From Telopea speciosissima (lineage: Eukaryota > Streptophyta > Magnoliopsida > Proteales > Proteaceae): a stretch of 64,000 nucleotides of DNA. The notes beneath the pieces are model-generated. The model worked only from the letters and a program-made list of their open reading frames with translations. It did not search any database and was not told the origin of the DNA. This document shows positions 18,667-63,639 of this stretch, piece after piece (position 1 is the first letter of the stretch; each line of letters opens with the position of its first letter). The position numbers and the translations under genes were made by a program. The stretch is from assembly GCF_018873765.1 (NCBI RefSeq), contig NC_057925.1, positions 59,408,970 to 59,472,969 of the forward strand. The letters run 5' to 3'.

Positions 18667-18924
18667 ATGGAACAGAATCTTTCGGTTTTTTTATTAGATT
18701 TTTTTTGTCACACAGAGCAAGGACCTTCCATCGTCATTTGCTCTCGGTGCTTATCTCCGCGCCTCAGGCTTCAGCAATCAGTAGGCACGCTGCACGCATC
18801 AAAGCTCGAAAGGATTCAAGTTAAAAGAGCATCTGAAGGTAAAAAACGGCAAATTGTCATAATCCCTCTGTCGCCACGGACTGCAAAAGAGGAATCATTG
18901 AGGCACAAAAGCAAATGGCTTTAG
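18667..18924 (+). other. Upstream ORF overlapping the NIT4 start
   Basis: An open frame of 85 codons starting MEQNLSVFLLDFF begins at 18667 and ends at 18924, ten bases past the A of the NIT4 start codon (18915), in another frame. It resembles no known protein. If the transcript begins upstream of 18667, ribosomes using this ATG would bypass the NIT4 start. The CT run at 18631 suggests transcription may begin nearby, so inclusion is uncertain. Confidence 0.35.
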
Positions 18925-21900
18925 TTCCAACTACTATCTCCAGTGGAGCCGTCATTGCCGAGGTTGATATGGGCGCGGACTCCGCCTCTCCTACGGTTCG
19001 TGCCACAGTCGTTCAAGCTTCAACCATCTTCTACGACACTCCTGCTACTATAGGTATTCCACTGCTTCTTACCCACCAATCGATGTTGAATTTTTCCTTC
19101 AGTTGCAGACAATTGTCAACTAACCCATTTGGGGGAAACCATGGATTTTACTGGATTAGTCGTTTCCACAAATACGGTGGAGATTATGTTTCATTGACCA
19201 CTTGTCCACCTTGTTGGTTTGCTTTATCAGTGACAGACAAAGTCATCTATGTTTTTTTCATTATTAACCCATTTGGAGAAAGAAACCTTGAATTCTAGTT
19301 TGACTACACTATTTCACGGGAAAGGGTTAAGATTCAGGGTTATTGTTTTCGTTACTACTTGCCCACTACCTGGGATTCTTCATCCGTGGCTGACAATTTC
19401 ATTTTTGTTTCTTTTCATTACAATAAGCGCTGTGGAGAGAAACCATGGATTCTAGTAGATTACTCGTTTTCTACTGATATTTAAAGTTTATATTCCTTGC
19501 TCTATGAGCAGATAAGGCAGAGAGACTGATTGCAGATGCGTCTGCATTGGGGTCGCAGTTGGTTGTGTTTCCGGAGGCTTTTATTGGTGGTTATCCTCGG
19601 GGTTCAACCTTCGGTGTCACTATTGGTGCTCGTTCGCTCAAGGGTAAAGAGGACTACCGGAAATATCATGCAGCCGCTATTGACGTACCAGGTGAATTTC
19701 TTCCCTTTTATAGGTTTGTGTTCAATTTGGTATGGTGCATTATTTGAAGCTTTTTAGGACCATTTGCCAGTAGAGATCATTCTTAGGTAAAATTGAGATG
19801 GAAGCTTGGGAGACCATCCATGGAATCTAATTCTACTTAGCCATATAGTTAACTGTATTCTAATCTGAAAGTTATTTGTATGCAAATTGCAGATTAGAGT
19901 GCAAGGACTTATCTAAATATTTGGTGTCTGCTAACAAAAAGGTTAATTTTAAGTAAAGTTAAGTGAATTAGTGGCAAGAAATGAACAGAAAGTGTCGTTA
20001 ATGAAGACTGGTATTTGCATTCTAATAGTACATGCATGCATCGACCATCAATACATATCATAATGCAGGCTTTTTTTTAGGGGGTGGGGGTGGGGGTGGG
20101 GGTGGGGGTGGGGGTGGGTGGGATGGAAAATTCAGTTAACAAGCATCCCTTCTAAAACAGCAGATGATTAACTACAACTAGGTGATGTTGATAAATGCAA
20201 TCCCCCTTCTGGGACTAAGATTAGGTTCCCATACAAAGTCCATTATGTTATGTAAAGGAAATTTGACTTTAAAAGAGAAACAAGGTGTGGGGAAAATAAA
20301 AATAAATGAGCAGGACTCTTAACATAAGAAGATGAGTGACTTCTTAATGCAATATTTAACTGAAGGCCATTATGAAAGGGCTTGAGACTGCTTTGGCCAA
20401 TGGGTGGAACAAGATGATAGGGGAAGGTGAATCTTCCTTGGCTGAAGGATCATGTAGGGGGTCCTTGGAGATATCGTTACCTTATCAAGAAGGCTAGGTC
20501 CCTTGCAGGGCAAGGTATTCTTTTTCTTGGAGATTGAGGAATGCCAACTTGATTGCTAATGAGTTGGCTAGATAGGGGATGAGTAGGCAGTCTTTCTACT
20601 TGGGTCCTTTGCTAGCCAAGATTGATGAGTCTAGAACAGAATCAAAAGGGCCAGTGGACAAGTATTGGACTCTCAGTTTGGCTCGTTCGGTAGGGTCAGG
20701 TTAGTCCCCCAGTTCGACCCAGCTAATTATTTACTTAGTGAGCCAGTGCACGTAGGTGGGCATTGCTTCCTTGTCTCATTGCCATTATGTAGCATTCTCT
20801 GGTATTTGGGCCTTTGCCCTTGTGTTGTTGTATTTAACTGTTTTCCTTTGTTTGGGCTTTGGGCTTGACCTTGGCCGTTGTTGGTGTTGTATTTTGTTTC
20901 TTATAGCTCTTTTCACATGTAATAAAATTATCATTAAAAAAAAAAAAAACTGAATGTGTGAAGAATGGGAAAAGGAAAATACTCTCCATCCATCAAATAC
21001 AATTTTGAGAGAGATTGGCATGGGTCTCTACAAGTTGCAGTTCTTTTGCAACATGCCATGATAGGGTTTGATTTAGATAAAGGTTGACGATCTCTTGCTT
21101 TAGGTTGTAATCAGACACCCTAAACATCTCTGTGGAGGTTGTGTTAACATGGAGAAACATCACAGTTGCAGTGCCTACATCTGATGAAAATGTTTATACT
21201 GTATAATGTGTTTGTGACATTAAATTATCTTGACATTCATAGACTTATCGTTATGCTGAATTTGTGCAAACTGCAAACAGGACCTGAAGTTGATCGACTG
21301 GCAGCAATTGCTGGAAAGTATAAAGTTTATTTAGTGATGGGTGTAATAGAGAGAGAGGGATACACACTCTACTGCACAGTTCTGTTTTTCAATTCTCAGG
21401 GGCAGTACCTTGGGAAACACAGGAAACTTATGCCAACAGCTTTGGAGCGTATAATGTGGGGTTTTGGAGATGGATCTACGATTCCTGTATTTGATACTCC
21501 GATTGGGAAGATAGGTGCCCTCATTTGCTGGGAGAACCGAATGCCTCTATTGAGAACCGCAATGTATGGTAAAGGTAAACATATTAACTTATAATATTTG
21601 AGATAACATTCCCTTATACAGTGTTTCTTTGATAAGGTTACTCATTTTTTAATTCATATTATTTTTGGCAAGACGTCATCCATTCTTCCTTAACGTTGCT
21701 GTATAATGTCTTAAATGGTGGAGTGAGTTGACTTTGCAGTTTAACAGCCGAGTCATACATCTGACACATCTTCCAGCCTGCATCTGCTATACACAATGGT
21801 ATACATGCATTGTAGTGGAAACTCATCATTTGGTTTTTCCCTTTTGGGAGATCTTGTAGACCAAATTTGATTCTCTTGGATGCTACAGAAAATCCATTAT

Positions 21901-22907
21901 TTTATCTTGATAATTGAAAAAATGTGATATATAACATCCCTTTAGATGTCTAAAATAGGGGTAAATTACGCAAACCGCAGCTCGGACAATTAGATGCTTT
22001 AAGGTCCATGGTCCTCCACATGTGCATAGGGCATAGGTAATTTGTCATGTAAACATGGATTCTATTACATAAGGATTATTCTCTTGTGCTAGTTATTGTG
22101 AATAATGCATTGACAATTATAGGTAAGACGTTTGGTTGAATAAGAGACCAGTTTGGGATTAAAGGATCCTGTAAGTCCGTAGACCATTATCTTGACTGCA
22201 AGATGACCCGCATTTCTAATTGTTTGAACTGACTGATTCATTTTCTTTAGTACTTTCAGATGCTCAATCTCACCGCATTTTTTATCTTTTAGGCCTGGAG
22301 ATATATTGCGCACCTACAGCTGATTCAAGGGATGTATGGCAAGCATCCATGACCCATATTGCTCTTGAGGGAGGATGCTTTGTTCTATCTGCAAACCAGT
22401 TTTGCAGAAGGAAAGATTACCCACCTCCACCGGAATATGTGTTTGCAGGTACAGATGAAGATCTCTCACCTGATTCTGTTGTTTGTGCTGGAGGCAGTGT
22501 CATTATTTCGCCATCAGGGCAAGTCTTGGCAGGACCTAATTATGAAGGAGAGGCTCTCATCTCGGCTGATCTAGGTATGCTTGCCTCTTTTAGCATTCAT
22601 CTATGTGAAAGGCATTGATATGACTCAAAACAACACTAAACTTTCAGTATCTACCCATTTTCCTGTCCTGCATTTAGTAGTTCCTTGAGTAACCCACTCT
22701 TTTTTCATGGTTCTTATCATTATAAGGTTAATTTTGATGTTGAAATGATCTGCAGATCTTGGAGAAATAGCACGTGCAAAGTTTGATTTTGATGTAGTTG
22801 GGCATTATTCAAGGCCGGATGTATTGAGCTTGGTGGTGAGGGACCACCCAAACACACCTGTTTCTTTTACATCTGCGTTGAAAGCAGAAAGGCCCCAGAA
22901 GTCATAG
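18915..22907 (+). CDS. NIT4: Bifunctional cyanoalanine nitrilase / nitrile hydratase NIT4
   Basis: Five exons: 18915-19053, 19512-19691, 21281-21574, 22293-22574 and 22756-22907. They join in frame (1047 nt, 348 residues) with GT/AG borders. NIT4 hydrolyses beta-cyanoalanine, formed when plants detoxify cyanide, to aspartate plus ammonia or to asparagine; it is a soluble cytosolic enzyme. The nitrilase triad is visible: Glu68 in [14 protein letters not shown], Lys155 in GKHRKLMPT and Cys189 in [10 protein letters not shown]. Blocks such as [30 protein letters not shown] and [14 protein letters not shown] are NIT4-type and distinguish it from the NIT1-3 group only by memory of the family. Length matches the usual 345-355 residues. 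It is the only intact NIT4 copy here; a pseudogene and smaller relics lie at 38.5-63.4 kb. A candidate overlapping upstream ORF and a G-rich tract in intron 2 could affect expression. Confidence 0.95.
20080..20124 (+). repeat. G-run tract, strong quadruplex motif
   Basis: In intron 2 of NIT4 the sense strand carries a 45-bp run of G3-G5 blocks separated by single T residues (ggggtgggggtgggggtggg and so on). Single-base loops between long G runs are the pattern of very stable parallel G-quadruplexes in DNA or pre-mRNA. Structure formation is inferred. Confidence 0.7.
20380..20951 (+). mobile_element. 5'-truncated L1-type LINE with poly-A tail
   Basis: Within NIT4 intron 2. Degraded coding pieces at about 20520-20575 read [16 protein letters not shown], like the end of the RNase H domain of plant L1 ORF2 proteins (usually REAN.VADELAR). 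The 3' UTR-like part contains tgtaataaaattatcatt and ends in a pure A run at 20936-20950. Truncation at the 5' end and a poly-A tail fit target-primed reverse transcription. The 5' boundary and target duplication are not clear. Confidence 0.6.
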
Positions 22908-23031
22908 TGTAGTCTTGGCATCATCGGCCACTCCATATATTTTCATATTTGGGAAAGCTCTTTGTCATTTATATTATTGGGAGCTCAGTTAGTATCATGG
23001 CTTCCCATCCATGTTGATGAATGCCAAATTT

Positions 23032-23037
23032 AATAAA
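23032..23037 (+). terminator. Poly(A) signal of NIT4
   Basis: A canonical AATAAA lies 125 bp after the NIT4 stop codon in the sequence ccaaatttaataaagatg. The same surroundings recur in the NIT4 relics at 41.7 kb and 49.6 kb, which marks them as copies of this 3' UTR. Confidence 0.6.
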
Positions 23038-23416
23038 GATGTATCTATAGCTGTAAGTGGTTAATTTGGGCAAGGACAACTCTACAATTATAATTATGAA
23101 TTTTCCATGGTTGTTTTCATATTTCTTCAAAAAAAAAATTTCTCCAAAAATCCATCAAAATACATGTTATCCTTCAATGAAGATGATATTTCTTTGATAG
23201 TTTTAACATTACAAATGCAAATTAAGTACTTAACATCTTTACATCAGACCGACTGATTCTATTGCTGGCTTGAATTGGTTAATAACATTACTAAGCAAAA
23301 CTTTGGTGTCTCAATGAAGTAGTAATGGACTACACTGGCAACGGCAGTAGACAGAGTGACAGACACAGAGACAACATTAAGATATTAACAATTATAATAA
23401 CAATGAGAATAATAAT

Positions 23417-23675
23417 TATTGAGAGAAAGATCCATGCAAGATGATATACTTACCTTTCTCGGCTATTATCACATGTGTCATCACATGTGATATAAATCCG
23501 AATATCTTTAGTAACCCAATCAGTTGGGCTCTCATTATGGTCACACAATATCTCTTCCAATATTCTTGTAATCCTCAATATTGTGTCACTATGTTAGATC
23601 AGATTGTATCTTGTGTATGTATATCTCCTTTGGGGTAAATCAATATATAAACTAAGGATCCCATTTACACTAATA
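23417..23675 (+). repeat. 5' LTR of the Ale-like Copia element
   Basis: 259 bp, starting tattgagagaaagatccatg and ending ccatttacactaata. The ends TATT and AATA are inverted to one another. The repeat matches the 3' LTR with about nine substitutions and a few small indels by direct comparison. The boundary is set by where the two copies stop matching. Confidence 0.88.
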
Positions 23676-26600
23676 TGGTATCAAGAGCCAAGAAAGCTCA
23701 AACGAGCAATCTCTGATTTTTTTTCTCTAAGCCATGATTGGCTGCCATAGCTCCTCCAACAATGGGAGCCCTACTGGCCACGCAAGACTTGCCCAACCCT
23801 CTTCCCTTCTCGTCTTCCATCTCTCCTCCTTCCTTGAATCATGCCCACCACTACATTTCATTGAAGTTAACCTCTAAGAATTTTATTTTCTGGCAAACTC
23901 AGGTTGAGCCATTCTTGGATGGCCAAAATCTGTTTGGACACATTGATGGTTCCACACCATGTCCTGATCGATGATCTGACTGAGGCTGCTGCATGGCGAT
24001 GTCAGGACTCCCTCATTCGAAGTATGCTTGTGTCCTCCTTATTTGAAGAAGTGTTCCTGCTGGTTGTTGGGAAACGGACCAGCAAAGAGATTTGGGACAC
24101 CTTGACAATAGCCTTCTCATCCACATCTGAGAGCCGATTGATGGCCCTTAACATGGCACTCACAGATTTAGAACAAAAATCTGATGAAACTGTTTCTCTG
24201 TTCCTGCAAAGAGCCAAGTCCATTGCCGATGAACTAGCTGCAGCGGGTCACTCTCTGCGCCCAAGTGCTTTCAATCTACATGTCTACCGTGGATTGAAAC
24301 CTGAATTCAAATCCATGGTTTCGTCTTTACTCACAAGGACCGATCCTATTGGTTATGATGACCTTCATGCGATGCTGTTAAGCCATGAATTTTTGCATGG
24401 CACATCCTTGAAAAAGCTGGCCCTAACGGAAGATGCTGCTCCTATACAACCTATAACTGCAAATAATGTCCAGCGATCCAATACCTCCCCCTCCCCTAGC
24501 TCCTCTCCATTGACTCGTGGTGGCCATGGGGGCAGATGGGGGCGTGGAGGGTGCAATGCTGGGTGTGGCCGTGGTCCTCCAAATGGCTATGGCCTTTTTG
24601 GTGTTCGATTTGTAGGCGCACCAACCATTCTACAGACAGATGCTTCTATCATCCACAACCAACCTTTCCTGCTACATCTACATATCCATTTGCAAACCCA
24701 AACCCATCAGCCCATTATTCTTACCCAAACCCGACAGCCTATTACCCTACCCACACCCAACCAAATCCGCCCATATTACCTACACTTCACCCATCAATAG
24801 CACTACCCTGGTACCCTGACACTGGTGCATCCCACCATGTAACTCCAGATCTCTTTGCTTTATCTCAATATGATGACTACAACGGTATGGATCAGTTGCA
24901 TGTGGGTAATGGTAAGGGGTTACAAATATCTCATATTGGTTCTTCTTCAGTTCCTTCCAGTTCATCTCGTGCTTTTTATTTGCATAACATTTTACACGTA
25001 CCTTCCATTTATAAATCTTTATTATCTGTTCAGAAATTCACTCAAGATAATAATGTCTTCTTTGAGTTTCACCCGTCTCACTTTCTTGTGAAGGATCAGG
25101 TAACCAAGGAAACCCTGTTGTCCGGACCGAGTAAGGATGGTCTTTACCAGCTTCACCCATCAGTCTCTCCTTCTGCGCATTAGGCCATTAGAAGTTCTCT
25201 TGTTCTTTGGCACAATCGTCTTGGGCACCCACATCAACTCCTTTTACAGCATATGCTTCGACAAAATAATTTAAGTTTTCATTCTTTTGGTTTAAAATCA
25301 CTTTGTAAGGCTTGCCAACTTGGCAAGGCCAGGCGACTTTCTCTTCCATTATCTAGTAGTAGAAGTATTTATCCTTTAGATTTAATTTTCACAGATGTGT
25401 GGGGACTGTCACCCACCCCGTCAATATCCAACCATCGTTATTATGTGATTTTTGTGGATGATAACACCAAATACCTATGGTTTTATCGATTCACTCACAA
25501 ATCCGAGGTTTTTGAGGTTTTTCCTAAATTCGAAGCTATGGTTGAACGTTTATTTGGGAGAAAAATAAAATCACTACAATCTGACTGGGGGGGGGGGGGG
25601 AGGGAATTTCGGTCTCTACCAACTTATTTTGCTAAGCTTGGAATCATTCATAGACTTTCTGCCCCACATACCCCTGAACAACAGGGTTCCGTTGAGCGTC
25701 GGCATAGACATATTGTTGAAACTGGTCTCACCCTGTTTGCTCATGGGTCTGTGCCTCAAAAGTATTGGCATTCTACTTTCGAAACTGCCGCTTTTCTAAT
25801 CAACAGAATGCCATTTTCTGTCTCACATGGCATCTCTCCATTTCAGTTGGTTTTTCACAAGTCTCCAGACTATGGTTTTTTAAAAGTGTTTGGGTGTTTA
25901 TGTTATCCCTATTTAAGACCATACAATCATTATAAGATGGATTACCGGTCCAATGCTTGTGTCTTCCTTGGTTACAGGCCCTCTCATTTGGGCTACAGAT
26001 GTCTTGACCTTACAACTCACAAAATGGTGATTGCACGCCATGTTCGTTTCGATGAACATTCTTTGCAATTTTCCAGCATGTCCACTGCACCTACCATTCC
26101 ACCCACACCAAGCTCAATAGTTCCTTGGGCTTCATCACCTCTTACTCCACCTAGTGCACCAGTACCATAGCCACATGCACCACCACCATCACCAGTGTCA
26201 CTACCGTCCATGGGTACCCCAACAATGCCTTCTCTCCAGGCCACACCCATGTCAGCCCAACCCATTACGGGTTTTCAGACACCAAGTCCTAGCCCACCCA
26301 TTTCGTCTTCCTCTCCACCATTAAGAACTAGGCCTCAAGCCCATATTTCTAATGTAGTTATTACTGAGCCATCTTCTTTCTCGCAGGCTAATAAGGTGTC
26401 AGAGTGGAGAGCTGCGATGAAAGAGGAATTCAATGCCTTATTAAGGAATGACACATGGTCCCTTGTGCCTCGAACAGCTGCAATGAATCTTATTGGCAAT
26501 AAGTGGGTATATAGAATCAAACGGAAGGCTGATGGATCTTTAGAGCGCTATAAAGCGCGCCTGGTGGCTAAGGGGTTCCACCAACAACATGGTCTGGACT

Positions 26601-27915
26601 ACAGTGAGACGTTTAGCCCTGTTGTAAAGCCGACAACCATCAGATGCATACTATCCATAGTAGTTTCCAATAACTGGCCAATCAGACAGCTGGACGCCTA
26701 GAATGCGTTCCTACATGGTTCCTTGGATGAGGAAGTGTTTATGGCTCAGCCGCAAGGTTTTATTGATCCATCGCACCCAGATTATGTCTGTCGACTCCAT
26801 AGATCACTCTATGGCCTAAAACAAGCACCTCGTGCTTGGTTTCACAGATTATCAGCATTTTTGATTGGTTTGGGTTTCATTGGGTCCAGAACGGACACAT
26901 CTCTCTTCATCCGTCGATCCAATGACCAGGTCTGCTACATACTTATCTATGTTGATGACATAATTGTCACGGGTAGCGATCCGTCAATGATCCATTCTTT
27001 ATTACAGAGGTTATCCAACGAGTTCTCCATCAAAGATCTAGGGGATCTTCATTTCTTTCTTGGCATAGAGGTGAAGCAGCATAGCAATTCAGGGCATTTT
27101 ATTATCGCAGAACAGGGATATCTCGGATTTATTAAACCGCACGGGTATGAGTGACTGCAAGCCCGTGAGGACACCAATGGCTACCACTCTCAAACTCAGT
27201 GACTCAGGGGGTGCACCAATGGCTGACCCAACCAAGTATAGATCGGTTGTAGGTGCACTACAGTATGTTACCTTGACACTACCAGATGTCTCGTTTACGG
27301 TGAATCGTGCTTTTCAGTTCATGCATTCACCAACAGAGGAACATTGGCAGCTTACCAAGAGGATAATTCGTTACTTAAAAAACACACAGTCTGCAAGTCT
27401 TTTAATCGAGAGATCTCCTTCAAAGTCACTACAAGCCTTCACCGATGCAGATTGGGTCGGTGATGGTTCCGACCGGAAGTCGACCGAAGGATTTGCTATT
27501 TTTCTGGGCCCGAACCTTGTCTCTTGGGTCTCTAGGAAGCAGAGAACTGTGGCTCGGTCCTCTACTGAGCCCGAGTACAAGGCGCTCGTAGCTGCGTCTG
27601 CCGAGCTTATTTGGCTAGAATCTCTACTGATGGAACTGGGCCATCTGCTGTCTGGCCCTCCAATTTTGTGGTGTGATAATCTAGGGGCTACTTACCTGTC
27701 GGCTAATCCAGTATTCAACGCGCACATGAAACACGTGGAGGTTGATTTCCACTTTGTTCGTGATCGAGTGGCTAAGAAACAACTCCAGGTGCAGTTCATT
27801 TCATCCCACAATCAACTTGCTGATACATTAACCAAGCCTTTGGCACATTCCAGATTTGAGTCATTAAGGGACAAGCTGAAGATTCGGTTGCCCGATTCTC
27901 CACCTTGAGGGGGTG

Positions 27916-28169
27916 TATTGAGAGAAAGATCCATGCAAGATGATATACTTACCTTTCTCGGCTATTATCACATGTGTCATCACATGTGATATGAATCCGA
28001 ATATTCTTAGTAACCAAATCGGTTGGGCTCTCATTATGGTCACACAGTATCTCTTCCAATATTCTTGTAATCCTCAATATTGTGTTACTATGTTAGATCA
28101 GATTGTATCTTGTGTATATATATCCCCTTTGGGGTAATCAATAAACTAAGGATCCCATTTACACTAATA
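27916..28169 (+). repeat. 3' LTR of the Ale-like Copia element
   Basis: 254 bp, five bases shorter than the 5' LTR because of small indels near the aatcaataaactaag segment. It follows the polypurine tract without a gap and ends at ...acactaata; host sequence (gtaataaacaaataaac) follows. Confidence 0.88.
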
Positions 28170-30335
28170 GTAATAAACAAATAAACAAGAACAGATATTC
28201 CTTTTTCACCATTTCTCCATTCACACACCTACCAGAGCTACAACCCTAAAGTAAAATAACCCTACAATGAAAGGTAGAGAATTCGAAGAAGAAGTTGAAA
28301 AGAGAGATCAAAGATGGCATCCAAAGCAATTACAAGTCTTGTGTGTGAAAGAGCAGAAACCAAATGGCCTGTTTGAGATGTTGCAGTTGATGGCATACCA
28401 GACAAATAAATAACAAATTGGTTAAAAGGTATAAAACAGAACAAGGACTTAAATCAAGATCATTAATCTAGGAAGAGAGCTTTTTCAAAATACAAATAGG
28501 AATTGGTTTAACCAAGAACCTCTACTGACAAAAGCATTTTATGACTCACTCTTGTTGTTTTAAGTAAGCTGAATGATTAAAACATGATCAAGCAAAAGGG
28601 AACCACTTCTCAAAGGTTGCAGTTTCTGTGCCTCTGAAAATTTAGGGTCTAATTCAGATATCATAATTAAAAGAGAAAAGAGAATACTTTTTCCATAAAA
28701 ATCCCCCATCCGCCCAAAAAAAAAAAAAAACACTAAAATTGAAGCAACAAACCTACTTACTTCCCATTCAATGGCAATTACAGAAATCAAGAAAAAAGAA
28801 AATGCAGAAGTTAAATATGCAGAAAAAAGATTACTAGCTCCTGTCATCAATTTAATTGATGAAACTACAAAAACAATTATGATCTCAGTGCAAAAAAAAA
28901 AGAAAAAAAAGGAAGAGAAGTTCCTGTGCCAACACAAAAACCAATAGACCCTTTTATATTTTCAAATTTCAACTGAAATGAAACTCAAATTGAAGAAAAT
29001 ACAACAATCTTAAAAAGAAGATACTTAAAATGTCCCACCAATAAAGCTATTTGACAAAAATTGGAAAACACTGTGAAAGTAGGCGATTGGTCTTTTGACT
29101 TCCAGGCGTCAAACTCATCCAAACTAGTGGAGAGTCTGGAGATCAAACATGCATGAAGCAAATATTTCTTCCGAATCGACCCCAAGAAAAATAGATTTTA
29201 TTCTTATTCTCAAAGTAATATCAAACAAAATTTGTAACTATGAAACCTACCTAGCTAGTACCTAGTTGATGGCTCATGTAACTAATAATATCAACACTTC
29301 TTGCATTGGTTACAGGTTGAGATGCTTGGGTTTCACTTTCCATACCATTTCTCACAGTGAGAAAAGTTTCCTCTAGTCTTTCCCCCAACCTCTCTTTGGA
29401 TATGCATACCAGCTTCCTTCTTTACGACAGATTGTTCGTGGGTGCACTCTCATTCTGACGTCAGGACGGAAACTTTTGAAATATTTATGATTTTTTAATT
29501 TTGTTTCTTAAATTTATCAGCAAAACAATCACAAAATGTGAAAACCAATCTTCTTTTCTTGGCTTCCAAACAGCCTTATTTTTGCTGCTGAGATTATTAT
29601 CACTTGGAGTATTACTCCCAAATCCCCACCCATTGGTCCCACAATTGGGCTTTCGGGTTTATCAAGAATTTTCACCATATTCCCAGCTAGCTATTTTACC
29701 TCATACAATCTCCGACGACTTCTTTCCACATATTTCTTCCGAATCAACCCCGTGATTCCCGTGATCTTTTAAGGTGATTGACTGATGGATCAGGATCGTG
29801 TCTCCAGGAACCCATCCAAGCATCCAGGGTGCTGTCAAAGAGCATCCAGTGGTTGGTTGAGCTGTGCCACACACATCTCGCTACACCTCTAGGGATGTGT
29901 GTGGGACAATCCAACGGGGCTGGCAGCATCTGGGCGTGCTGGACTCCATGGAAACGAACTAAATTCTTGATTGATGAGTCTCTTTTATCCAGGAACTTCA
30001 CTTTTTTCTTGGTGGTGAGGGTCACCAATTAAACTTTTCTTCGGCTCGATCTCTTCCTTTGCTCTTTTTTTTCCAGGAACTATACTTCTGCTGCTGAGAT
30101 CATCAGATTAAAGTTTAGTTGAAATTGGGCATACAATGTGAGAGGGAGTTGTCCCTATATCTCACAAAAGATGCTTTTAATTATTTCAGTTTGTGTGTCC
30201 CTACTCAGTACTGCGTAATTATTTCACTTTGTTGTTTTTCTCCGGCGAATGGCTTTTGTTTATCTCTTTCTTGTTTTTTGTAATTTTTATTTAACAAAAT
30301 TGCCATTTCATTGCCTCCATTGTGACCACTCATTT
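28170..30335. other. Intergenic between the Copia element and NLR1
   Basis: AT-rich DNA with A and T runs (28719-28734, 28893-28915). No coding domain is recognisable. A GC-richer stretch at 29790-29960 (ccatccaagcatccagggtg ... gggctggcagcatctgggcg) has local inverted repeats but no identifiable ends. Nothing further is supported. Confidence 0.5.
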
Positions 30336-30343
30336 TATAAATA
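30336..30343 (+). promoter_or_regulatory. TATA box candidate of NLR1
   Basis: TATAAATA occurs 141 bp upstream of the NLR1 ATG (30477). The homologous stretch before NLR2 reads tctacaaattccc (about 42024-42036), so the box is absent there although the following ttgtgagctctat is shared by both copies. Function is inferred from position. Confidence 0.45.
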
Positions 30344-31289: not shown

Positions 31290-31406
31290 GGGGAAATTGA
31301 TTCAAAGTCAAAACTCATAGAAAAAACCGGGGAAATTGATGCAAAGTCAAAAGTCATAGAAAAACCAGGGGAAATTGATGCAAAGACAAAACTCGTGCAA
31401 AAATTA
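31290..31406 (+). repeat. Three tandem 39-bp repeats inside NB-ARC of NLR1
   Basis: Three in-frame units start ggggaaattgat at 31290, 31329 and 31368. They encode GEIDSKSKLIEKT, GEIDAKSKVIEKP and GEIDAKTKLVQKL. They lie between RNBS-A and kinase-2, where other NLRs have a single spacer of about this unit's length. NLR2 has none of the three in this form and a shorter spacer. Unit-to-unit differences are few, so the expansion is recent. Confidence 0.9.
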
Positions 31407-34430: not shown

Positions 34431-34511
34431 CGTGGTGTACTTGGGATTTCAAATTGTCCTAAACTGTCTTGGAGGCATTTCCTAAGGTCTCTTCCAAAAA
34501 GATTATCGTAG

Positions 34512-38992: not shown

Positions 38993-39160
38993 GTGGGGGA
39001 GCCTTGGTGCAACGGTTTAGTTGCACTATAGCAAACATCTGGTGGTGGGTTCAAAACATGGAAACAACCTCTCCGCGGAGCCAGGGTAAGGCTGCGTACA
39101 TCTGCCCCTACTGCAGCATCCTGCAGTAGCAGGAGTCTGGTGCACTGGGACACTCTTTTT
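38993..39160 (+). mobile_element. tRNA-derived SINE, Au-like (shared by both blocks)
   Basis: gagccttggtgcaacggttt gives an A box and gtgggttcaaaac a B box, followed by the Au-SINE-like body gaaacaacctctc and aggctgcgtacatctgcccc. The same insertion is present at 57206-57358, so it predates the block duplication. Confidence 0.7.
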
Positions 39161-51943: not shown

Positions 51944-54918
51944 TGTAGGTGCAGTTGACGGAGGGTCGCTGAGCATGCACCCAGGGGGAAAGAAAGAAAA
52001 TGGGAAAATGGGAGTCGCCACCTAGATTTAGGGTCTAGGACCCATGAATGGTGCCCCTCCTTCGCAGAAGGGGCGCTAAAGTAACTCCAATGACTCAATG
52101 GATGGTCTGCCCCAAATCTCTGGGTAAGTGTCAAGTTACGGGCTGGGAAGGTGTTAGGCACCCAGCAACCGCTCGGCCGACGGCCGGTCTTCCTAGACCA
52201 AACTCTGTTGTGTACTGTTGTTTTATACATATTATGTACCTAATTAAACTATTTTTTTTTTAAAGATTTTTTATTATCTTAATTGAAATTTATGAACCTA
52301 GTTAGGCTAATTAAGATGAATGTTTTAATCCTGATTACTATCACTAGGCTAGATAGTTATGTACATTATGCATCCTAGTTAAGCTAATTAATGGATTTTA
52401 CCTAAATTAGAAAGCCTAACTCCATGGTCTAAAACATGGTTGACTGTAAAAAAGAAAACCAAGTCTAATTATATCATGAAGAAGGACAATTATATTGATA
52501 AACAAAACAGCTTATAGGCCAAAATAGCCAAAATTACGAAAATGCCACTAGAGGGCCAAAATATGTACAAAGGCATGAAATCATATTTAAATGCTGTAAC
52601 TAAGCAAAACATGATTAAATAACATTAACATCATGCATTTGGATCATCAAGAGCACATGAAATGGCAAGGAAATGTGGGGTGGTAAAAATTACCAAAATG
52701 CCCCTGTTATGGCAAACATGTAGAAAATGCATGATAATTCATGAAAATGCTGACTTATGCTTAAAACATGTTTATTAAATGTTAAAACATGCGGCAAAAG
52801 TAACAGGAGCCTTTCCGGGGTCCTAAGCAAGGTTTGGTCACAAAATGACCAAAATGCCCCTAAGGGAAAAATGGCAAAAGTGTCAAAAGACACTTAGAAT
52901 CATTATAGGCATTGAAAGTGATGTTAAACATCCTAAGATGACTGAGCACACCAAATGATATTTCCAGAATGATAGCCTAGGCTCACGTTTGGTAAATTAC
53001 CAAAATGCCCCTAGAGGGCGCAAATGACTTTGTATGCATATCTATCAAGCATGATGGTCACGTATGCATATGAAAACATCCTAAACCATTCTAAAACAGC
53101 ATGTCATGCATAAAAACATTTTTTCCTATTTTTCCAGAATTTTTCATTATAATTAGAAAAATGACATTTATACCCCTAAATGAGGTGGGAAATGTATAAA
53201 AACTATCAAACATGCATGTCAGTGGATAATGATTCCATAAAATCAAGCATGATGAAATATGCATTCCATAATTTTTTTGTGAATTTTTATGCATTTATAT
53301 TATTTTTAATATTTTCTGAAATGCTAAAAAAGAAGGGAAAACAAAGAAAAATACAAAATCCCCATCACAGATCCGAATTGGATCAAACCAGAGCCCATTC
53401 CCACTAATCAAAACATGATCTTTAACATGGTCATAACACTTTTGTCCAAATACCCACCCACATGTTCAGATTTTACATAATCCGAAAACCTTTATAGGGG
53501 CAAAAATGTCACAAAAAAATGATTTGGAGCTTGAGCAAATTAATGAATGTCAAACATAGTGACAGGCATCATCCCTGAAAATTTCATATTTTTATCACTC
53601 TTGAATTATTTTTAACATTTTTATAACTGAAAAACAACCTTTGTTGTAAAGAAAATCAAAACAAATACTTAGAAATAAGTAAAAAATATGGAAAAATACC
53701 CTTGAAGCGTGGAAGTGCCTGGGCTCAGTTGAGTAACCTTTTTTTGACCGTAAGTATCACCGGAAACCTCCAAAAGCCTCTACTTGCTCCGAATGGCAAG
53801 AGTGGTGAAGAAGGGGTATTTACGGAATTTTATATCAGTAATGGAGCATAACCTATGGATAAGAAAACCATGGATGGAAAGAGGGGATCAAGGACTACGT
53901 GAAGGTAATTTTTCACTAATTTTCCTCCGTCCCTAATCTATCTAAAACACCTCCTATTTATAGGAAAAAAGTGTTCGAGGAAAGGTCTCAAAGACCCCTG
54001 GTGCATTAATGGCTAGGATAAGGAGTGATGGGCTGGCTTGCGTGTGGCTAGGCTTGCTGTGCCTAGGCTTGCTGTGCAGCCTGGGCATGGGTGATGGGCC
54101 TTGTGTGGCTCAGCCTAAATGGTGGGGGTTTGTCCCCTACCGATAGTCCAGCTGGGCCGGGTCAGACTGGGTTGACTCGGTTCGGGTCAACTCAGTTTGC
54201 CCCACCTTTTTTTTTTTTTTTTTTTTTAATAAACCATTTAAAGATTCCATTTTAAAGGCCCAAGTTCAAATGCTAATATCTTTAAAACCGAATGGCTGAT
54301 TTTGATGCACCACATATCGCCGCGAAGGTCTCAACATGTACTTTCCATCCGTGTGGCAGATATGGCCTGATTTTTCCTAAAAATGGCACGGATATCGAGA
54401 AAAACACATAAGTGGTGTTTCACGCCGATCAAGGTCCAAATGATACCAGAATTACATGAAATTTTACGTGTAAGCACAATATGACCAAATAAAGTTATCC
54501 AAATGGTTTCAGGTCACATCGGGTGGCTCGGGTACCAAGAACCATGTCAGGGGTAAAGCGGTCATTTTCCACAAAAATTACCCGATTTGGCCGAAACTTT
54601 ACGTGAAAGCTTAATATGACCAAATGAGGTCATCCAAAGTGTTTCAGACTAAATCGGGTGGTATAGATACCGAGAATCGTGCCAGGGGCAAAACGATCAT
54701 TTTCACAAAGGTGTTGGATTTGGGTGAAACTTCAAATGTGGACTTAAAATGGTTAAATACGGCTATGTTAGGGGTTTAAGCTCTATTTGGGACAGTTGGT
54801 TACAAAAGGTGGGGTAGGGGTAATTTGGTAATTCTTGCCATTCAGTCACCACACGAGTTACGAACTTTACCATCATTGCCAGGACGCACTTCCAAGGTGT
54901 CAAAATGTGGTGTCTACA
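51944..54918. repeat. Solo LTR, 2975 bp, probably Gypsy (Ogre/Tat-like)
   Basis: Starts TGTAGGTGCAG and ends GGTGTCTACA, so TGTAG and CTACA form an inverted terminal pair. It is flanked by perfect 5-bp repeats acaag (51939-51943 and 54919-54923). No primer site, polypurine tract, coding domain or second LTR is present, so recombination between two LTRs probably removed the inside. The block gggagtcgccacctag...gggaaggtgttaggcaccc and the ending gtgtctaca are, from memory, seen in large plant Gypsy LTRs. A weak repeat of about 120 bp (54455-54720) and recurring ccaaaatgcccct words lie inside. Confidence 0.82.
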
Positions 54919-55116
54919 ACAAGTCAAACTCAGAATGACTTGTTACCACTTCTCGAGAAGGTTAAGATTTCAGTTACTGTATAAATTGAAATTTTCATGA
55001 AAAGTGATGTAGATGGGGTTAAAAGAACCAAATATAAGAGAAAGGGAATCTTAATCCTTGATATGAAGTTACATGACCTGCTTCATGGTGTATGTTGTCA
55101 ACATCTCACCATGTGG

Positions 55117-56802
55117 TGTTGGACAAGTGTGTGTCCATCAAACCCGATTCGGTCCGGTTCAACCCGGTTCACCTTTGTATTGAACATTTATACATTTTAG
55201 TTTAATATTGTCACATGCGATATAAACTTTTTAAGCATTATGTGTCCGTAAGTTATACTTAAAATGGTAGTCACGACTAGGGTTTGGGTGGCACCTTATC
55301 ATATGGTCGTCAGATTGGGTATGCCTAGACATGTGATGTCGTGACGAATGCGAGTGCTCACATGTTTGATGTGTGCATTGGCGAAGAATCTACTTTGTCG
55401 ATTCCTCATGTATTCGCCGGATGTAGGAAGGGATAGACATGTGTCACCGACACCGCACTGAGGGAACCTCCCACCGCAGTGTGATCGCATTCTTTGGTTC
55501 ATCAATGACCGAGACTCAAGCGAGTCAAAGTCGGTGTTCGGGAATGCGTGAACACTTTGTGAGTGAAGGAGTTATCCAACACGGTCACCACGCCCGATTG
55601 GGGAACACCAAGATAGAGACTGCTCGTGCATGGTCGGATCGTAACTGGATCGAGCCGTTTTGGAAATGGTTTTGCAAATTTTATTTTACATAAAATGATA
55701 CATTATTTATAGTTATTTCAAATAAAGTGTTTTATCGAGTTTTGCGGGACCCGATCGGATGCACATACGCTCTTATATGGACATGTACTATGGATTGGGG
55801 TTTGGCAAGACATGTGTACATGCCCTAGATTCCATAATGATGGTGTTGAGTAGTGGGGGTTGTATATGATAAATTGTTATCATATAGGGAGTTATTTGGA
55901 ATTTGCTAATTTAATTGGCTCTTTATTTAATTAATGGATTTGGTGCTAATTGTAATTATCCATTAATAATTAAATAAAGAATCTAATTAATACTTTCCCT
56001 ATTAGATTCTCGCTTCTTCACCTATGTAGCACTTTGAGTTTAAACAGAACGCGATCGAGAGAGAGAGAGAGTCGACTCTCACTAGGGCTCTATTAAATCT
56101 ATCTAGGATTTAATTAAACCCTATTATTATAAATAGGGGACCATAAAAAGCGTAAGGAGAAGCTCTCCACGTTTTTGGAGCAGATACACTCTCTCTCCTA
56201 CGTTTTTGGTTTCTCTCTCTCCCTCTTGTGATCTCTCTTCTTCTTCTTGCTTTTCTCACTGTGTTTGAGAGTTAGGGTTTGTGAAACCCTAGATCTGTGG
56301 CGAGGAGTTTGAGGGCATCCGGGATTGGCGTGTAGAACCTTGGTAGCACCATTGGAGGTTGGACTGTTTGCTTGGAGCGCTTATGGAGGAAGAACCACTG
56401 TCTATTGGAGGAGCAATGCTTGAGGCTCACCAGGTTAGCAGTTCTTTATTAATTCCTTCTCGCTCATTGATTATTAATATTTATGGGATGCGAAAGAAAC
56501 TCGAATCGATTAATTTCGCTGCGCATTCGAGTATGGGATGGATCCCTCTTGCCATGTGATGGACTAGAGACAAATTTCTCCGTCCCTATTGTGATAATTA
56601 ATTTTATGGAATGCAATAGGGAAGGAGAAACCCTAATAGGGATGCACTGGGGTTCCCATGGGCGACCATGGGAAACCCTAAAATTAAAATGGGGCACCCA
56701 TGGGACACCATGGGCTAACCCAGCGTGCAAAACCCTAAAGATAAATATCTTGGTCTCCCTAGGGAACCATGGTTTGATCCCTGGACCGTTGTTTGGCCAA
56801 CA
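55117..56802 (+). repeat. Solo LTR, 1686 bp
   Basis: Starts TGTTGGACAAG and ends GTTTGGCCAACA, with TGTTGG and CCAACA inverted to each other. Perfect 5-bp flanking repeats tgtgg lie at 55112-55116 and 56803-56807. Near 56130 tataaatagggg, followed by CT-rich sequence and agggtttgtgaaaccctag, looks like an LTR promoter with its transcript start, which sets the plus orientation. No coding region or partner LTR is present. The family cannot be named from the LTR alone. Confidence 0.85.
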
Positions 56803-56807
56803 TGTGG

Positions 56808-59476
56808 CTCATTTGTTTAGAGGATCAAGACCCATATCTAATGGGTTCACCAAAGATATTGGTGATTCCATTCAGCATTATCAAATGATAACAATTACGT
56901 TCTTAATGGATTCATTTATATGGTTAAGGATTTAAAGTTTAACTCTGTAGGCAATTCTAGGATATTTATCTGCATAAGTGTATAGAAATATATTTTCTGC
57001 TGTGTTTCGGCACAGGTGATATTTTGGCAGGAACCATGAAATGGTGGTTTCTGACCTTTTTGCATGAGAATGTGTTGCTGGATTTAGTGAATCCAAAGCT
57101 CCCCTGTTACCCCCCCCCCCCCTTTTAGAAATGCTGTTATGAGTTATTGTTGAAAATGGGATGTCTTAGTGTTTTTTTATAGAAGATATAGAATCTGATA
57201 ATGAGTGGGCGAGCCTTGGTGCAACGGTTTAGTTGCACTATTACAAACATCAGGTGGCGGGTTCAAAACATTGAAACAGCCTCTCTGCGGAGCGAGGTTA
57301 AGGATGTGTACATTTGCCCCCAGATCCTGCAGTAGCAGGAGTCTCGTGCACTGAGATACTTTTTTTTTCTCTAAATTTTTTAATCCTATTATGGTTACAT
57401 TGTTATACTCTACAGGAGTTGAAGGTCCGTGCCCTGGGCTCTGTAAGAAGGCTGCCTTTGTAATAAACAACATGTCTATGGATGGCTGTGCTAGTGTCAA
57501 TGAAGTTGAAGTGCCTACCTTTTCTGGTCTTTATCTCCCATTCTTTCTTTTTTGTGAATGAAGTTTTTCCAATGAGTGCAAAGAAAGAAAAAAAAAAGTG
57601 TAGAATCCCCTCTTCATGGGCTTCATGCTTATCTCTATACCATTGGGGGCTAGGAAAAGACTCCCAAGCCTCAATCATACACAACATTGTGAAGAAGCAG
57701 CCTAGAGGAAAAGTAGACATAATGATGAAGATCAAGAAGTGAATCTACTTTTGAAAGTTCATCAAATCTACTTCCATAATTTCCAACATACAGAAAAAGG
57801 TCATCCTTCGGATTATTTTCCTTTTTGGCCGTCCACCCAAATTTTGGTAGTATATCTGTTGAAATGCCAAAGATATTCTAAGAGTCACGGCCAAGAAAGG
57901 TTAAATATTCCTCAGTAGATAGATTGCATCATACTGAAATGAATTGATATAAATTCTCTATTTTGGTGAAAAGGCATCACATGTTACCTGAAAACATATT
58001 CACTAAATCTGTAGGATGTACAATGAACTACAAGAATGTCCGGAGAAGTCACCAAATGGATCTGGATGATTAAAATGTTTCCCTCTCTTTATTTTTTATG
58101 TAATGCATGTATACATTTTTCTATAGATGCTACTCTTTCTTTTAGTAACTCATCAATGCCAGGCCACTTTTAAGCAGTAGGTTACTAGGTTCCTTAACAA
58201 GTTTTATTTGGGAGGATTTGGAGGGTCTGATGACCTAACTGAGAAATAAGTAGTTCTGAAGCTACTAGAGCAGCAGGAGGCGAATCTGATAGAAAAGATT
58301 TCTCTGAAGTTGCATGTCCAAACCTTTTTGTGTCTAGTTGCTCTGAAGCAAAGCATATCCATCCGATCTTGTTGAAGAACATATCAACAGTTGCAGCTCA
58401 CAGTCATTTAAGTTCCTTAAGAAAGTTGGAAGCCAAAAATTTTGACGCTTTTAACTTCAGGAAATGAATAAAATACTTTCCATCTGGTATTGATGAAAGC
58501 ATGTAGACACTTGTGGACATACTGTTTTCATGAACTCTACTAATATTTTAAGGTTACTTCTCCATATACTAATCATGTGAGCACTGGGGATATCATCGTC
58601 GGCATACTCCATATTCGTACACCCATTTTTACCTGACATTGCCCTTCTTCGTGTATCACCATTATTGTAGTATATCTCAATGGCCATTTACCTGGAAGCA
58701 CCTTATTTATACTTCATGAAGCAAAACCATGCTCTACTCCCTCCCCCAATTCATTAATGTGAACATATCCTCTTCCATGCTATCAGGTGATATTTTTCTC
58801 CTCTTAATCCTTTCCTTATACTGGAAAAAAGAATAGCAAGATGGGTATGTCAGCTCTATGGTATGAGATATATTATCTTCTTAAAATGACATCATTACTA
58901 ATGGTTATAAATATTACAGGATGTAAATAAGGATTTATATATGATAATCTCTATAGAGCCCTAGGATTCCCTGCTTATCCCCCCAGAAGAAAGAAGAAAA
59001 TGAAAAGAGCAGTTCTACTTATTGAAAATAAAAATAAAAAAAAGAATACAAAAGTTACAGTTTAGCTGTTGCAAATCTTTCCATGTTTATCTTGCACCAT
59101 AACTTTGTAAAGTCCTTGATGATTTGTGAATATAAACAATCACTTGCAATCATGGAACTAAATCTCCATTGAAACTGACCAAAATCTTCGAGTTGTCTTG
59201 GTTTCAGGCGTTGGCTGAAATGAAACCCAAGGTCGAAACTTCTGGTTGAAACCCAAGGTTCGACCCAGGGAGGTCCATGGACGAAACCCAGCGTCGAAAC
59301 CTTGAAATGAGATCCAGCACGTCAAGCCTGAAACCAGGTCCAAAACCGAGATCTCGATCCTTGCTTGCAATAAGTATGCTATCAAATATCTGCAGTGACT
59401 CCCATTCTCATTGGAATTGGTGCAATAGATATGGCTTTCAGTTCTCTTTGTATTGAGGAACTTTCATGGAAACTGA
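56808..59476. repeat. Duplicated block in intron 2, sister of 38598-41683
   Basis: Homology starts at ctcatttgtt right after the solo LTR's target repeat and ends at ctttcatggaaactgat (59476). The block lacks MITE A and MITE B of the sister copy and so shows their empty sites. It still continues into intact intron and exon 3, which identifies it as the ancestral NIT4 intron 2 context. Confidence 0.85.
57206..57358 (+). mobile_element. Au-like SINE, sister copy
   Basis: gagccttggtgcaacggttt (A box), ggcgggttcaaaac (decayed B box) and gaaacagcctctctgcgg match the SINE at 38993-39160. About 17 bases (ctactgcagcatcctgc region) are missing or changed near its end. Confidence 0.7.
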
Positions 59477-61121
59477 TGAACCCCGCATCAAATTATATGT
59501 TGTGATTCCCTACTTGGTGAATCCATTTGGTCTACCTCTCCCAAAGCCTCACAAACTTATATTTTAATGCTAGCATCCTTTCTAAACTGTTGCATTGATC
59601 TAATGAAAGATGGTGAAAGTGTAACTCATTGAGCCTAGGTGGGTAGCATCAGGCTGGTACTTGAGTATAGATTATATTGTCATTCATATACAGTTTTGGT
59701 GATGAATTTGTATATTCAGGTCCTGAAGTTGAGAGATTAGCATCCATTTCTGGAAAGTATAAAGTTTAAATAGTAATGGGTGTGATAGAGAGAGATGGAT
59801 ACACACTCTGTTGCACGGTTCTCTTTCTGGATTCCCTTGGGAATTACCTTGGAAAACACCGTAAACTTGTGCCAACAGGATTGGAACGTGTAATATGGGG
59901 GCCTGGAGATGGATCAACTCTTCCTGTGTATCAGACTCCTATTGGAAAGATAGGTGCCGCCATTTGCTGGGAAAATAGAATGCCTCTACTAAGAACAGCA
60001 ATGTATGCTAAAGGTAAAACATTCTGGCATTAGAATTTTACATTTTGTGCTATTGTATCTTTCCTTTCCAAGCAAATTTGTTTCTGAAGATGTACTTTTT
60101 CTGATTTTTTTTAAAAAAAAATTCTTTTTTCACCTGTTTGGTAGATGCAATTGTGTTTTTTGATACTTTCCATGTTGTTGAGTAGGATTAAACTTATCTC
60201 TGTTTGTAGATTAATATTCTTTGTTGAGAACATCCTCTGCATTTGAACACACATGGTGCACATGCATAGTGGTTGAGAACAACCACTTGGCAGTTCTGAT
60301 TTGGAGGATCTAGTGGTCTATAATTTGACCCATATAACTCTTGTGTAAGATCCAACCCAAATGGTACTGCTTGTGGTGTGAAATCATTGCAATAATGGGG
60401 ATATGCCAAACAGTCCAAACAGAATGGGTTGTATTAGATACTTGTCCGACCAATTCAACTTTTGGCCATTGTGACACAGAAATTTGATAGGTCTTTTGCA
60501 CATATTTATTGCACTGCTGGGTTGGGGCAGCGGTGAGACACGTGGATGCCTTCTTTTTAATGCTCTTCTTGTATGAAAGTTGTTTGCATTTAAAGCCCAG
60601 TAACACTAGTAAATGTCAAGTCAAAGATGTTCACTTTAGGATACAGAGTTTTGGATTTCCATGTTTTTCTGACCTTGATGAATCATTCTCATGCATTTTA
60701 AAGCAATTTTGCTTTTCTACTAGTTGGAACAACAACTATTTTTTAATTTTTTTGGAGTTTGTTGCTATTTAAAAAATAAAGAAAAAATCTTGAAGCCCTT
60801 TCTTATTCACTAATCTCACAAGATCCATATTTCTTTAGGTGTTGAAATCTATTGCGCACCTAATGCTGAAGCGAGAGATGTATGGCAAGCATCCATGACA
60901 CACATCGCTCTTGAGGGTAGATGCTTTGTTCTCGCTGCAAACCAGTTCTGCCAAAGGAAGGACTACCCCACCTCCACCTGATTATGTATTTGTGAATAGA
61001 GATGAAGAACTCTCACTAAATTCTGTTGTATGTGCTGGGGGAAGTGTCATTATTTCACCATCAGGTGCAGTTTTGGCAGGACCAAATTATGAAGGGGAGG
61101 CCCTCATCTCAGCTGATCTAG

Positions 61122-63270
61122 GTACAGTCACTTTCCTCCTGCCTTCAATCAAGACAAATGACTTACAATTCTATATATATATATAGGGACCATCTAAATG
61201 ACACCTCTATAGGTGTATTTAGAACTTGACACCTCTTTTGATTGCCCCTTGTCTTATTCCCAAATGTTTTTTAAGTTAGGGGTTAAAAAAGGTTCTCAAA
61301 AATAATTTGAAGTAACCTATCATGATGTCATGTCAAAGTATGTGCTTACTAGTAGTAAGGTAGGATGCTTAAGCCACCTGTGAAATGGATAAGCATTTCA
61401 TTGAATGGATCCAGAGCATACATTAGAATCCACTTATTATTACTACTTTAGCACTACATTATCTATGGGAGTATGATCCTCCAGTGACTTAATGGACTAA
61501 AACAAGTAATAAATGTGAACCTAAAGGGTGAAAAACCAACCTTGTTTATTTCTGTGTTGGTACCTCAAATTCAATGTAATCCAACCCTGACCACAAGCAT
61601 TGGTCATTTGGAGAAGAACGCTGTAGAAAACTCTTAAGAGTTGAACGGAAAGGAAGCGAGTGTTAAAAAAATTAAAATAGGATGGGCTTTAACTATTACA
61701 GCCCCTCTCTTGGATGCTTTGCTTATGTATGAAGTGTTATTCTTATGTATCGTAACTCAATGATATCATCAGTACTGATGCTTTTGACACTCCGCCAGTT
61801 TTTTTACGAAATTTTTATTATCCTATCACTGTCAATGTCAAATTAACTGGCTGGAAAAACTGATACATATTGGACTGTAACCTAGCATAGGATACTAATG
61901 CATACTTTTAAGGTTTTAACTTTAAAGTATCAGTGTGGATAAAAGTATCATAAGTCAGTTTCAAGAACCATGTCTTGGATACATGTGGATGTACTGGAAA
62001 TGTCAGAGATTATTGCAACGGGAAATGTATTCGAATCTTATGATTTTGTCAATACATGTTAAATTAACATATTAGATTAGTAATAAGATACTGATGGAAG
62101 TTATACTCAAGCAACTGTAGAATTCACTCCCAGCCAAGGTGTTATCTTAAGCAAATACAGGCCCTCATTGATTGCAAGTACTTCAGCATAGGCCTGTCTT
62201 AAACTACACAAGTAAGGTGGGATCAACAAAACCATCAATTATCTCCCCCTCCCCCTACCCCAAAATAAATATTGAAGGGGAAAAAGGGGAGAGATGAAGT
62301 ATACTTAGACTTTGTGGGAAGACTTCACTTTTCAATAGATACCTCGACTCCTCGAGGTGAATTTAATGCAAGTCACTGCACCCCAATGAAGGGAAAAAGA
62401 AAAGAAGAAATCAATTTAATTGGTACTTAAACCTCTTAAATGTGAATTTATCAAATTTTATTTGTTTAGGGTAGTTACTTATCAGATTGTAACAAAAGGA
62501 TGCATGTGAATACTTTAGACCTTGGGGTGTGTACTATACTACTATAGAACACCAGCCTCTGGCTGATCCCTTTCAAAGTTTCTCCTACGCTGAAGGCTTA
62601 TACACTGAATGATCTTAACCTCCAGTGATTTACGGTACATCACTGGATCGAGTTCCCAAGAAAAACTTCTTTGGATAAGGTGCTTAGGATAATCTGATCA
62701 AGATGATTTGCTTTAATGATGTCCCTTTAGAGACCCTGTAAATTATGCATCTTGGCTGGTTTTCCCTTGGCAAGCATGTTGTAAGAACCTAACCAATGCA
62801 AAATCCCTAGGACTGATCAAAACATGAAGTTAGGTCCTTAACCTCTTGGGGTTTTAACAGTCCACATGCTCTAGTGCTGACGTTCATATCACTCATTCTT
62901 GCCTTTTGTTTAAATAGATCCCTTCTGGATTTCCGTCTTATGTCTGCTCTCACTTAATCCAGATTACCCTCTCAATTTCCAGCTGTGACTGTGAACTCAT
63001 GACTCTCTGTGCCTCTGAACCCAAATAAATATTAGGAACCTAGCAATATACCAAAAGCCCTAGGACTGCTGGCAATGTTTCAGATTAGGCCCTTAACAAC
63101 TTGGTTCACAACAAATTGTTGGGGTTGGTGGACCATCTTAAACCCTACCAGTATCAAGATTTTGTTTTTGGGGGGGTTGGGTTGTTGATGTGAAGAACCT
63201 TCATGTTGTTTTCTTTTTTCAATTGTTGTGATCAATGAAGGTCTCATATTTTGGTTCAAATGATATGCAG
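61122..63270 (+). other. Intron 4 of the NIT4 pseudogene
   Basis: This 2.1-kb intron runs from gtacagt to gatatgcag; the intact gene's counterpart is only 181 bp. A TA dinucleotide run (61173-61187) and a poly-C/CT stretch near 62240 are the only landmarks. Extra sequence must have been inserted, but I cannot recognise its ends or class. Confidence 0.6.
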
Positions 63271-63639
63271 ATCTTGGAGAAATAGTACGGGCAAAGTTTG
63301 ATTTTGATGTGGTCGGGCACTATGCAAGGCCTGATGTACTAAGCTTGACTGTGAGGGACCATCCAACTAAGTCAGTTTTCTTCACCTCAGCAGAAGAAAT
63401 GGAAAGCTCCCAGAAATCTTTGTAACTTCATTGTACTGTATAGGCTATTGGGCACATCATTTCTATCACTAACATAGAGAACCTAGTACTGTGGTCATGG
63501 CCCCCCATGCTGTTGAATCTGGAAGATTCCTCTTTTATTCCAGGCTGGACGATCGATACTAAAAAAACCTTTTCTCAGTTCTATACCAACTTATTGGATG
63601 TCAAGTTTCATTATGCCCCCAAGATTATGTTTGAAGCTT

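Follow-up and report, generated by a model that had tools for sequence, protein, structure and literature searches.

Two NLR Genes between Old NIT4 Paralogues in Telopea speciosissima: A Probable Birth-and-Death Array Carrying NIT4 Fragments as Passengers

The 64-kb window considered here (C10:59408970-59472969 of the Telopea speciosissima genome) contains, in order, a nitrilase gene (NIT4-A), a nucleotide-binding leucine-rich repeat (NLR) gene (NLR1), scraps of NIT4 sequence, a second NLR gene (NLR2), more NIT4 scraps and a NIT4 pseudogene (NIT4-C). An initial annotation of the window had reported this order, which is indeed present, and had read it as about two and a half repeats of a cassette made up of NIT4 and an NLR. 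We cannot sustain that reading, because no inner unit holds a whole NIT4 and the NIT4 genes at the two ends are separated by a synonymous divergence (dS) of 0.91. The duplicated unit is an NLR together with its 4-kb 3′ flank and broken NIT4 ends, and the region is probably a small birth-and-death array of NLR genes lying between two old NIT4 paralogues, whose pieces have been carried along as passengers.

Results

Diagonals are present in a self-alignment of the window. NLR1 (30310-38484) aligns with NLR2 (41995-49384) at 78-85% identity, the stretch 38595-41683 aligns with 56805-59477 inside intron 2 of NIT4-C at 77-96%, and the exons of NIT4-A and NIT4-C align at 73-84%. The paralogy of the two NLR 3′ flanks over about 4 kb, also claimed earlier, is seen in the same alignment. 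Every inner unit contains only 3′ ends of NIT4 and part of one intron: the scraps are NIT4-A-type 3′ ends (intron 4, exon 5 and 3′ untranslated region, or UTR), and the block at 38.6-41.7 kb is a partial intron of NIT4-C type. Positions without a contig name are those of the window, and features lie on the forward strand unless stated otherwise.

Behind NLR2, the 3′ flank (45550-49345), paralogous to that of NLR1 (34512-38445), meets NIT4 sequence at a seam that we call J2 (49342-49775), which consists of NIT4 intron 4 (49342-49541), the middle of exon 5 (49542-49587) and 3′ UTR. Homology of the flank to an NLR relative at C10:57.89 Mb stops at 49345, homology to intron 4 of a further paralogue, NIT4-D, starts at 49342, and the two overlap by four bases, TTAG. 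The flank is common to NLR relatives 1.5 Mb away, that of NLR1 being found in pieces behind the related NLRs at C10:57.87-57.89 Mb. It is NIT4-D that reveals the intron-4 homology of J2, because NIT4-A is without the stretch in question and presumably lost it.

The putative seam behind NLR1, J1 (38442-38513), has NLR flank followed by scraps of NIT4 intron 4 and of the exon-5 end. It is recognized as a seam by its match to J2: 38440-38484 is 87% identical to 49340-49384 (E = 2.8e-6 in the whole genome), and 38465-38495 matches 49517-49546. The intron-4 scrap ATCTACCCATTTTC occurs at 22649, 38474 and 49525, and the NIT4-A-type scraps of J1, from intron 4 and the exon-5 end, exceed shuffled sequence in score (43, shuffle maximum 30, and 39, shuffle maximum 20). 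That both NLR flanks end at a NIT4 intron-4 scrap, as first proposed, is borne out directly at J2 and, at J1, by way of the match to J2. Farther to the right, when 49776-50929 was compared with the regions upstream of the NLRs, a single weak match emerged at 50420-50505, which resembles the NLR upstream region at 29676-29770 (score 59, highest of 100 shuffles 65; BLAST E = 5e-4) and which a genome search did not recover. This stretch could be a remnant of an NLR upstream region, and it would then be the sole trace found of a lost extra NLR.

The second seam lies between the NLR units. The block 38595-41683, which carries insertions resembling miniature inverted-repeat transposable elements (MITEs), would be the right end of duplicated copy 1. 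The proposal that it is NIT4 intron 2 followed by the end of NIT4 exon 5 holds: intron-2 homology extends to about 41683 (59477-59483 in NIT4-C), homology to the exon-5 end of NIT4-A begins at 41685 (22880 in NIT4-A), and the seam between them, seam B, is placed at 41684 within a few bases. The exon-5 end and 3′ UTR at 41685-41805 precede NLR2 and would form the left end of copy 2. The exon-5-end piece scores 40 against NIT4-A and 22 against NIT4-C (shuffle maxima 24 and 28), and the 3′ UTR piece scores 81 against NIT4-A (shuffle maximum 50) and 28 against NIT4-C, no better than shuffles; by these scores, NIT4-A type fits the 3′ pieces better than NIT4-C type. The order of NIT4 parts around this seam is scrambled, an intron-4/exon-5 scrap being followed by intron 2 and then by the exon-5 end and 3′ UTR.

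It is very unlikely that the block is a mobile element inserted at two places and not a NIT4 intron at all. It does contain MITE-like stretches with many matches elsewhere, and it has no match in intron 2 of NIT4-A, NIT4-D or NIT4-E, the last a paralogue on another chromosome. Outside the repeats, however, its sole other genome match, among the best 40 of 10198 and the best 40 of 1562 candidates, is NIT4-C intron 2 (39441-41700 was not searched separately), and its right end coincides with the exon-5 seam. Following these genome searches, a mobile element was rejected as an explanation of the entire 38.6-41.7 kb stretch.

The seams also bear on whether NIT4-NLR pairs were amplified whole, the extra NIT4 genes decaying afterwards. 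The order NIT4, NLR, NIT4 pieces, NLR, NIT4 pieces, NIT4 pseudogene would suit such a history, and a 22-base string at 38514-38535 that agrees with 50763-50784, upstream of NIT4-C, at 21 of 22 bases faintly suggests that DNA from upstream of NIT4-C was formerly part of copy 1; that string, however, also occurs in short matches at C7:19847015 and C5:4150292 and may be a repeat. We regard amplification of whole pairs as unlikely. J1 and J2 have one common intron-4 border, so the NIT4 was probably truncated before copying; in the middle relic, an intron like that of NIT4-C is joined to a 3′ end like that of NIT4-A; and NIT4-A and NIT4-C diverged long before the NLR copies did. The scrap scores, the NIT4 dS values and the intron-4 seam led us to reject a whole NIT4 per unit.

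Divergence between the copies, expressed as Kimura two-parameter distance (K80), is 0.096 (95% interval 0.082-0.110) for the NLR 3′ flanks and 0.090 (0.074-0.110) for the intron-2 blocks, with values for flank and block from 0.090 to 0.112 over three maskings. Being equally diverged, the flank and the intron-2 block fit one tandem duplication of about 18 kb. When we looked for the marks of such an event, the head-to-tail seam was present and the two right-hand parts of the unit were equal, but the left part was more diverged.

This last result counts against a single duplication. K80 is 0.195 (0.114-0.267) for the NIT4-A/B 3′ UTR over 88 columns and 0.295 (0.183-0.417) for the NLR 5′ flank over 144 columns, the NLR dS is 0.20-0.26 (Nei-Gojobori), and sub-stretches of the 3′ flank range from 0.065 to 0.139. 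Because the pooled intron K80 between NIT4-A and NIT4-D (0.272) is about equal to their dS (0.269), the gap between left and right could be real, and a two-step history is possible. The seams are not free of difficulty either: against a second NLR relative (L039) the flank alignment at J2 tails on, gapped, to 49357, and J1 compared directly with NIT4-D intron 4 scored 28, where shuffles reached 37. Because J1 is taken as a seam from its match to J2 alone, our confidence in the passenger and tandem-duplication reading is slightly lower.

A history of two ages is our most serious alternative, though we put it forward tentatively. An older duplication of NIT4-A intron 4, exon 5, 3′ UTR, NLR and flank would have made both NLRs, and a later ectopic copying, by gene conversion or break-induced replication, would have carried flank, seam J and NIT4-C intron 2 from the NLR2/NIT4-C side to behind NLR1, where it landed in the exon-5 end. 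Besides the greater divergence of the left part, this would account for an exon-5 end that is present twice (38492-38524 and 41685-41716), both times nearer NIT4-A than NIT4-C. Set against it are the four-fold sites of the NLRs, which differ at 29 of 231 positions in three pooled segments (about 0.14, close to 0.10), and the 3′ flank, in which no change-point is significant (block-permutation p = 0.246); it also requires more steps. Here too the NIT4 pieces would be passengers.

NIT4-A (18915-22907), described from the outset as intact, is clean: its five exons (18915-19053, 19512-19691, 21281-21574, 22293-22574 and 22756-22907), separated by GT-AG introns, give an open frame of 348 amino acids. 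The protein matches Pfam CN_hydrolase (PF00795; E = 6.3e-64), its best match in the PDB is Arabidopsis NIT4 (6i00; E = 1.7e-183 over 329 residues), and its translation, in an intact frame, contains ICWENRMP, aligned to that structure. The Glu-Lys-Cys catalytic residues are found in it. By sequence, NIT4-A is a NIT4-type nitrilase. The end of its exon 5 and its 3′ UTR (22880-23218) would be the left end of copy 1, and similar pieces recur at 41685-41805 and 49584-49775. NIT4-C (50930-63419) retains recognizable pieces of all five exons, but its frame is broken in exon 1, interrupted by a stop in exon 3 and shifted in exon 4; its intron 2, about 8.3 kb long, contains what would be the right end of copy 2 (56805-59483).

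A genome-wide protein search (822.9 Mb, 1287 contigs; E no higher than 10) returned 22 matches to NIT4, located at NIT4-A, NIT4-C, NIT4-D, NIT4-E, a short fragment at C10:49.23 Mb and one C5 site (E = 5.5). NIT4-D (C10:5.67 Mb) has exon pieces covering residues 1-346 and no stop. NIT4-E (C1:25.06 Mb) has a diverged exon 5 and, across C1:25047764-25066600 (L017, L018 and L020), very long introns; it could be a pseudogene or else a nitrilase in altered form. In the short fragment (C10:49228248-49228373), residues 18-59 span the border of exons 1 and 2 with no room for an intron, and it is perhaps a retrocopy. Synonymous divergence is 0.91 for NIT4-A and NIT4-C, 0.91 for NIT4-A and NIT4-E and 0.87 for NIT4-C and NIT4-E, the differences of NIT4-C being somewhat inflated by its exon 1, which is partly out of frame after its break in the alignment. 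NIT4-A and NIT4-C are thus about as distant from each other as either is from a NIT4 on another chromosome; on these distances they are old paralogues, and NIT4-C reads as a dead one. The close relative of NIT4-A is NIT4-D, since dS between these two is only 0.27 (dN/dS = 0.19). Pieces of the NIT4-A and NIT4-D loci are collinear over window positions 9.9-23.0 kb (blastn). Stretches at 9928-16031 are collinear with DNA upstream of NIT4-D and, provided that they are not repeats, suggest that the NIT4-A locus has a duplicate of segmental or whole-genome origin.

NLR1 (30477-34511; 1344 codons) and NLR2 (42176-45549) are of the coiled-coil (CC-NB-LRR) type. NLR1 is broken by one in-frame stop (TAA at 32100-32102) and NLR2 by a frameshift near 42860; domain scans of the parts before and after each break found Rx_N, NB-ARC, winged-helix and LRR domains in both genes, the last two being, in NLR1, WH_DRP and LRR_R13L1-DRL21. 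Neither NLR is intact as assembled, and sequencing error may account for the single lesions. At 31218-31361, the NB-ARC region of NLR1 has an insertion of three similar GEIDxKxKxxxK-like units that is absent from NLR2, and the matches of several NLR relatives break close to it. Tandem repeats with a 144-base period at 33708-34424, in the LRR region of NLR1, are fewer in NLR2 and occur also in two relatives (L040 and L042). Between NIT4-A and NLR1 lies an element at 23417-28169 that, by eye from its frames, is a Ty1/copia-type long terminal repeat (LTR) retrotransposon. It is present in copy 1 only, and its LTRs are about 95% identical (K80 0.047, below that of the NLR flanks).

These differences between the copies speak to whether the array is an assembly artefact joining two haplotypes, a concern raised along with the cassette proposal. 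Tandem repeats are a common assembly hazard, and the single NLR lesions could be sequencing errors. The copies, however, differ by about 10% in non-coding sequence and have insertions of their own, the copia element among them, and we consider an artefact extremely improbable. Heterozygosity in Telopea is given as 0.76% (PMC13080361), and against that figure the copies are too diverged to be haplotypes. The artefact was rejected on the copy-specific insertions and the non-coding divergence.

Adjacency of NIT4 and close relatives of NLR1 and NLR2 does not recur at the places examined in this genome. At E 1e-5, NLR1-like matches are absent from the 40 kb surrounding each of NIT4-D and NIT4-E and from the 40 kb on either side of the window; the nearest listed NLR-like place to NIT4-D is about 107 kb away. 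Among the best 80 of 577 NLR candidates scored, the six closest relatives beyond the array map to C11:45.43, C11:45.06, C10:58.42, C10:57.89, C10:57.88 and C7:19.39 Mb, and none of them is close to any NIT4 match. At C10:57.87-57.89 and 58.42 Mb, the eight stretches compared contain no NIT4 beyond one 84-base match in repeat-like NIT4-C intron 2.

Elsewhere in the window, an open frame at 5591-5962 on the reverse strand appears, on visual inspection, to be an RNase H-type fragment of an element resembling a long interspersed nuclear element, and a tRNA scan of the 64 kb found no tRNA genes.

Discussion

We suggest the following history. The 3′ flank of an NLR would first have been fused to intron 4 of a NIT4-A-type gene, an event that is clear behind NLR2 and has left a matching stretch behind NLR1. 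A later tandem duplication of about 18 kb, which began in the NIT4-A exon-5 end, took in the NLR together with its flank and seam 1, and reached into NIT4-C intron 2, would then have produced both NLRs, as copies 22880-41683 and 41685-59483, and left the join at 41684. Afterwards, copy 1 would have received the copia element, both copies would have been altered by large deletions and MITE-like insertions, and NLR1, NLR2 and NIT4-C would have acquired their breaking lesions while NIT4-A kept its frame. Illegitimate end joining could have brought about the duplication, as could unequal crossing-over of NIT4-C with NIT4-A followed by deletion. The older seam may go back to a previous tandem duplication that yielded an extra NLR, since lost, and the NIT4 pieces would be functionless passengers throughout.

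A more active part for NIT4 is conceivable, though we think it doubtful: the NIT4 paralogues themselves may have served as the recombination substrate that duplicated the NLR, crossing-over between NIT4-C and NIT4-A leaving a C/A hybrid NIT4 between two NLRs. A conserved metabolic gene pair would then drive the copy number of the immune receptor between its members, and the process could recur in related Proteaceae. If this is true, copy number at the locus should vary among related plants.

The suggestion that a nitrilase and an immune receptor were co-amplified is right in one part. NIT4 and NLR sequence was copied together, as the matching seams behind both NLRs and the equal divergence of flank and intron-2 block indicate; the metabolic gene was not amplified as a gene, and since the inner units hold NIT4 fragments only, no working NIT4 was added in them. 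The accompanying idea of a link to cyanide and ethylene in defence finds nothing to stand on, both NLR frames being broken in the assembly and no NIT4 lying beside a close NLR relative at the places examined. The array adds a clear instance to a known kind of NLR duplication, and a cyanide-immunity unit is without support.

The array illustrates how pieces of a neighbouring gene can mark where an NLR duplication broke, so that the order of events can be read from the passengers. In a larger context, gene-plus-NLR "cassettes" noticed in raw sequence may be seams and not co-amplified working genes.

Tandem duplication with decay is a usual route by which NLR clusters grow (PMC6972905, PMC6141779), and the second of these reports describes members of the Prunus Ma cluster that are chimeric or frameshifted. 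The array resembles plant NBS-LRR birth-and-death clusters in its adjacent paralogous NLRs, its decayed members and its chimeric or truncated copies. It is unlike them in that the seams fall in a neighbouring metabolic gene family and not inside the NLRs. Every plant is said to have a NIT4 homologue specific for beta-cyanoalanine (PMC6637149). With five exons, 348 amino acids and Arabidopsis NIT4 as its best structural match, NIT4-A is, to judge from its sequence, like these beta-cyanoalanine hydrolases. Among open-licence PubMed Central papers we found none linking NIT4 or nitrilase to tandem duplication of NLRs, which says little.

The tomato Cf-4/Cf-9 (Hcr9) cluster reportedly contains interspersed lipoxygenase sequence, a detail that a literature check, PMC7202015 included, did not confirm. 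If it is correct, the two loci are alike in being resistance-gene arrays with copied pieces of a linked metabolic gene. They differ in that the Hcr9 genes encode receptor-like proteins and have a lipoxygenase as passenger, whereas the array in Telopea consists of NLRs and carries a nitrilase.

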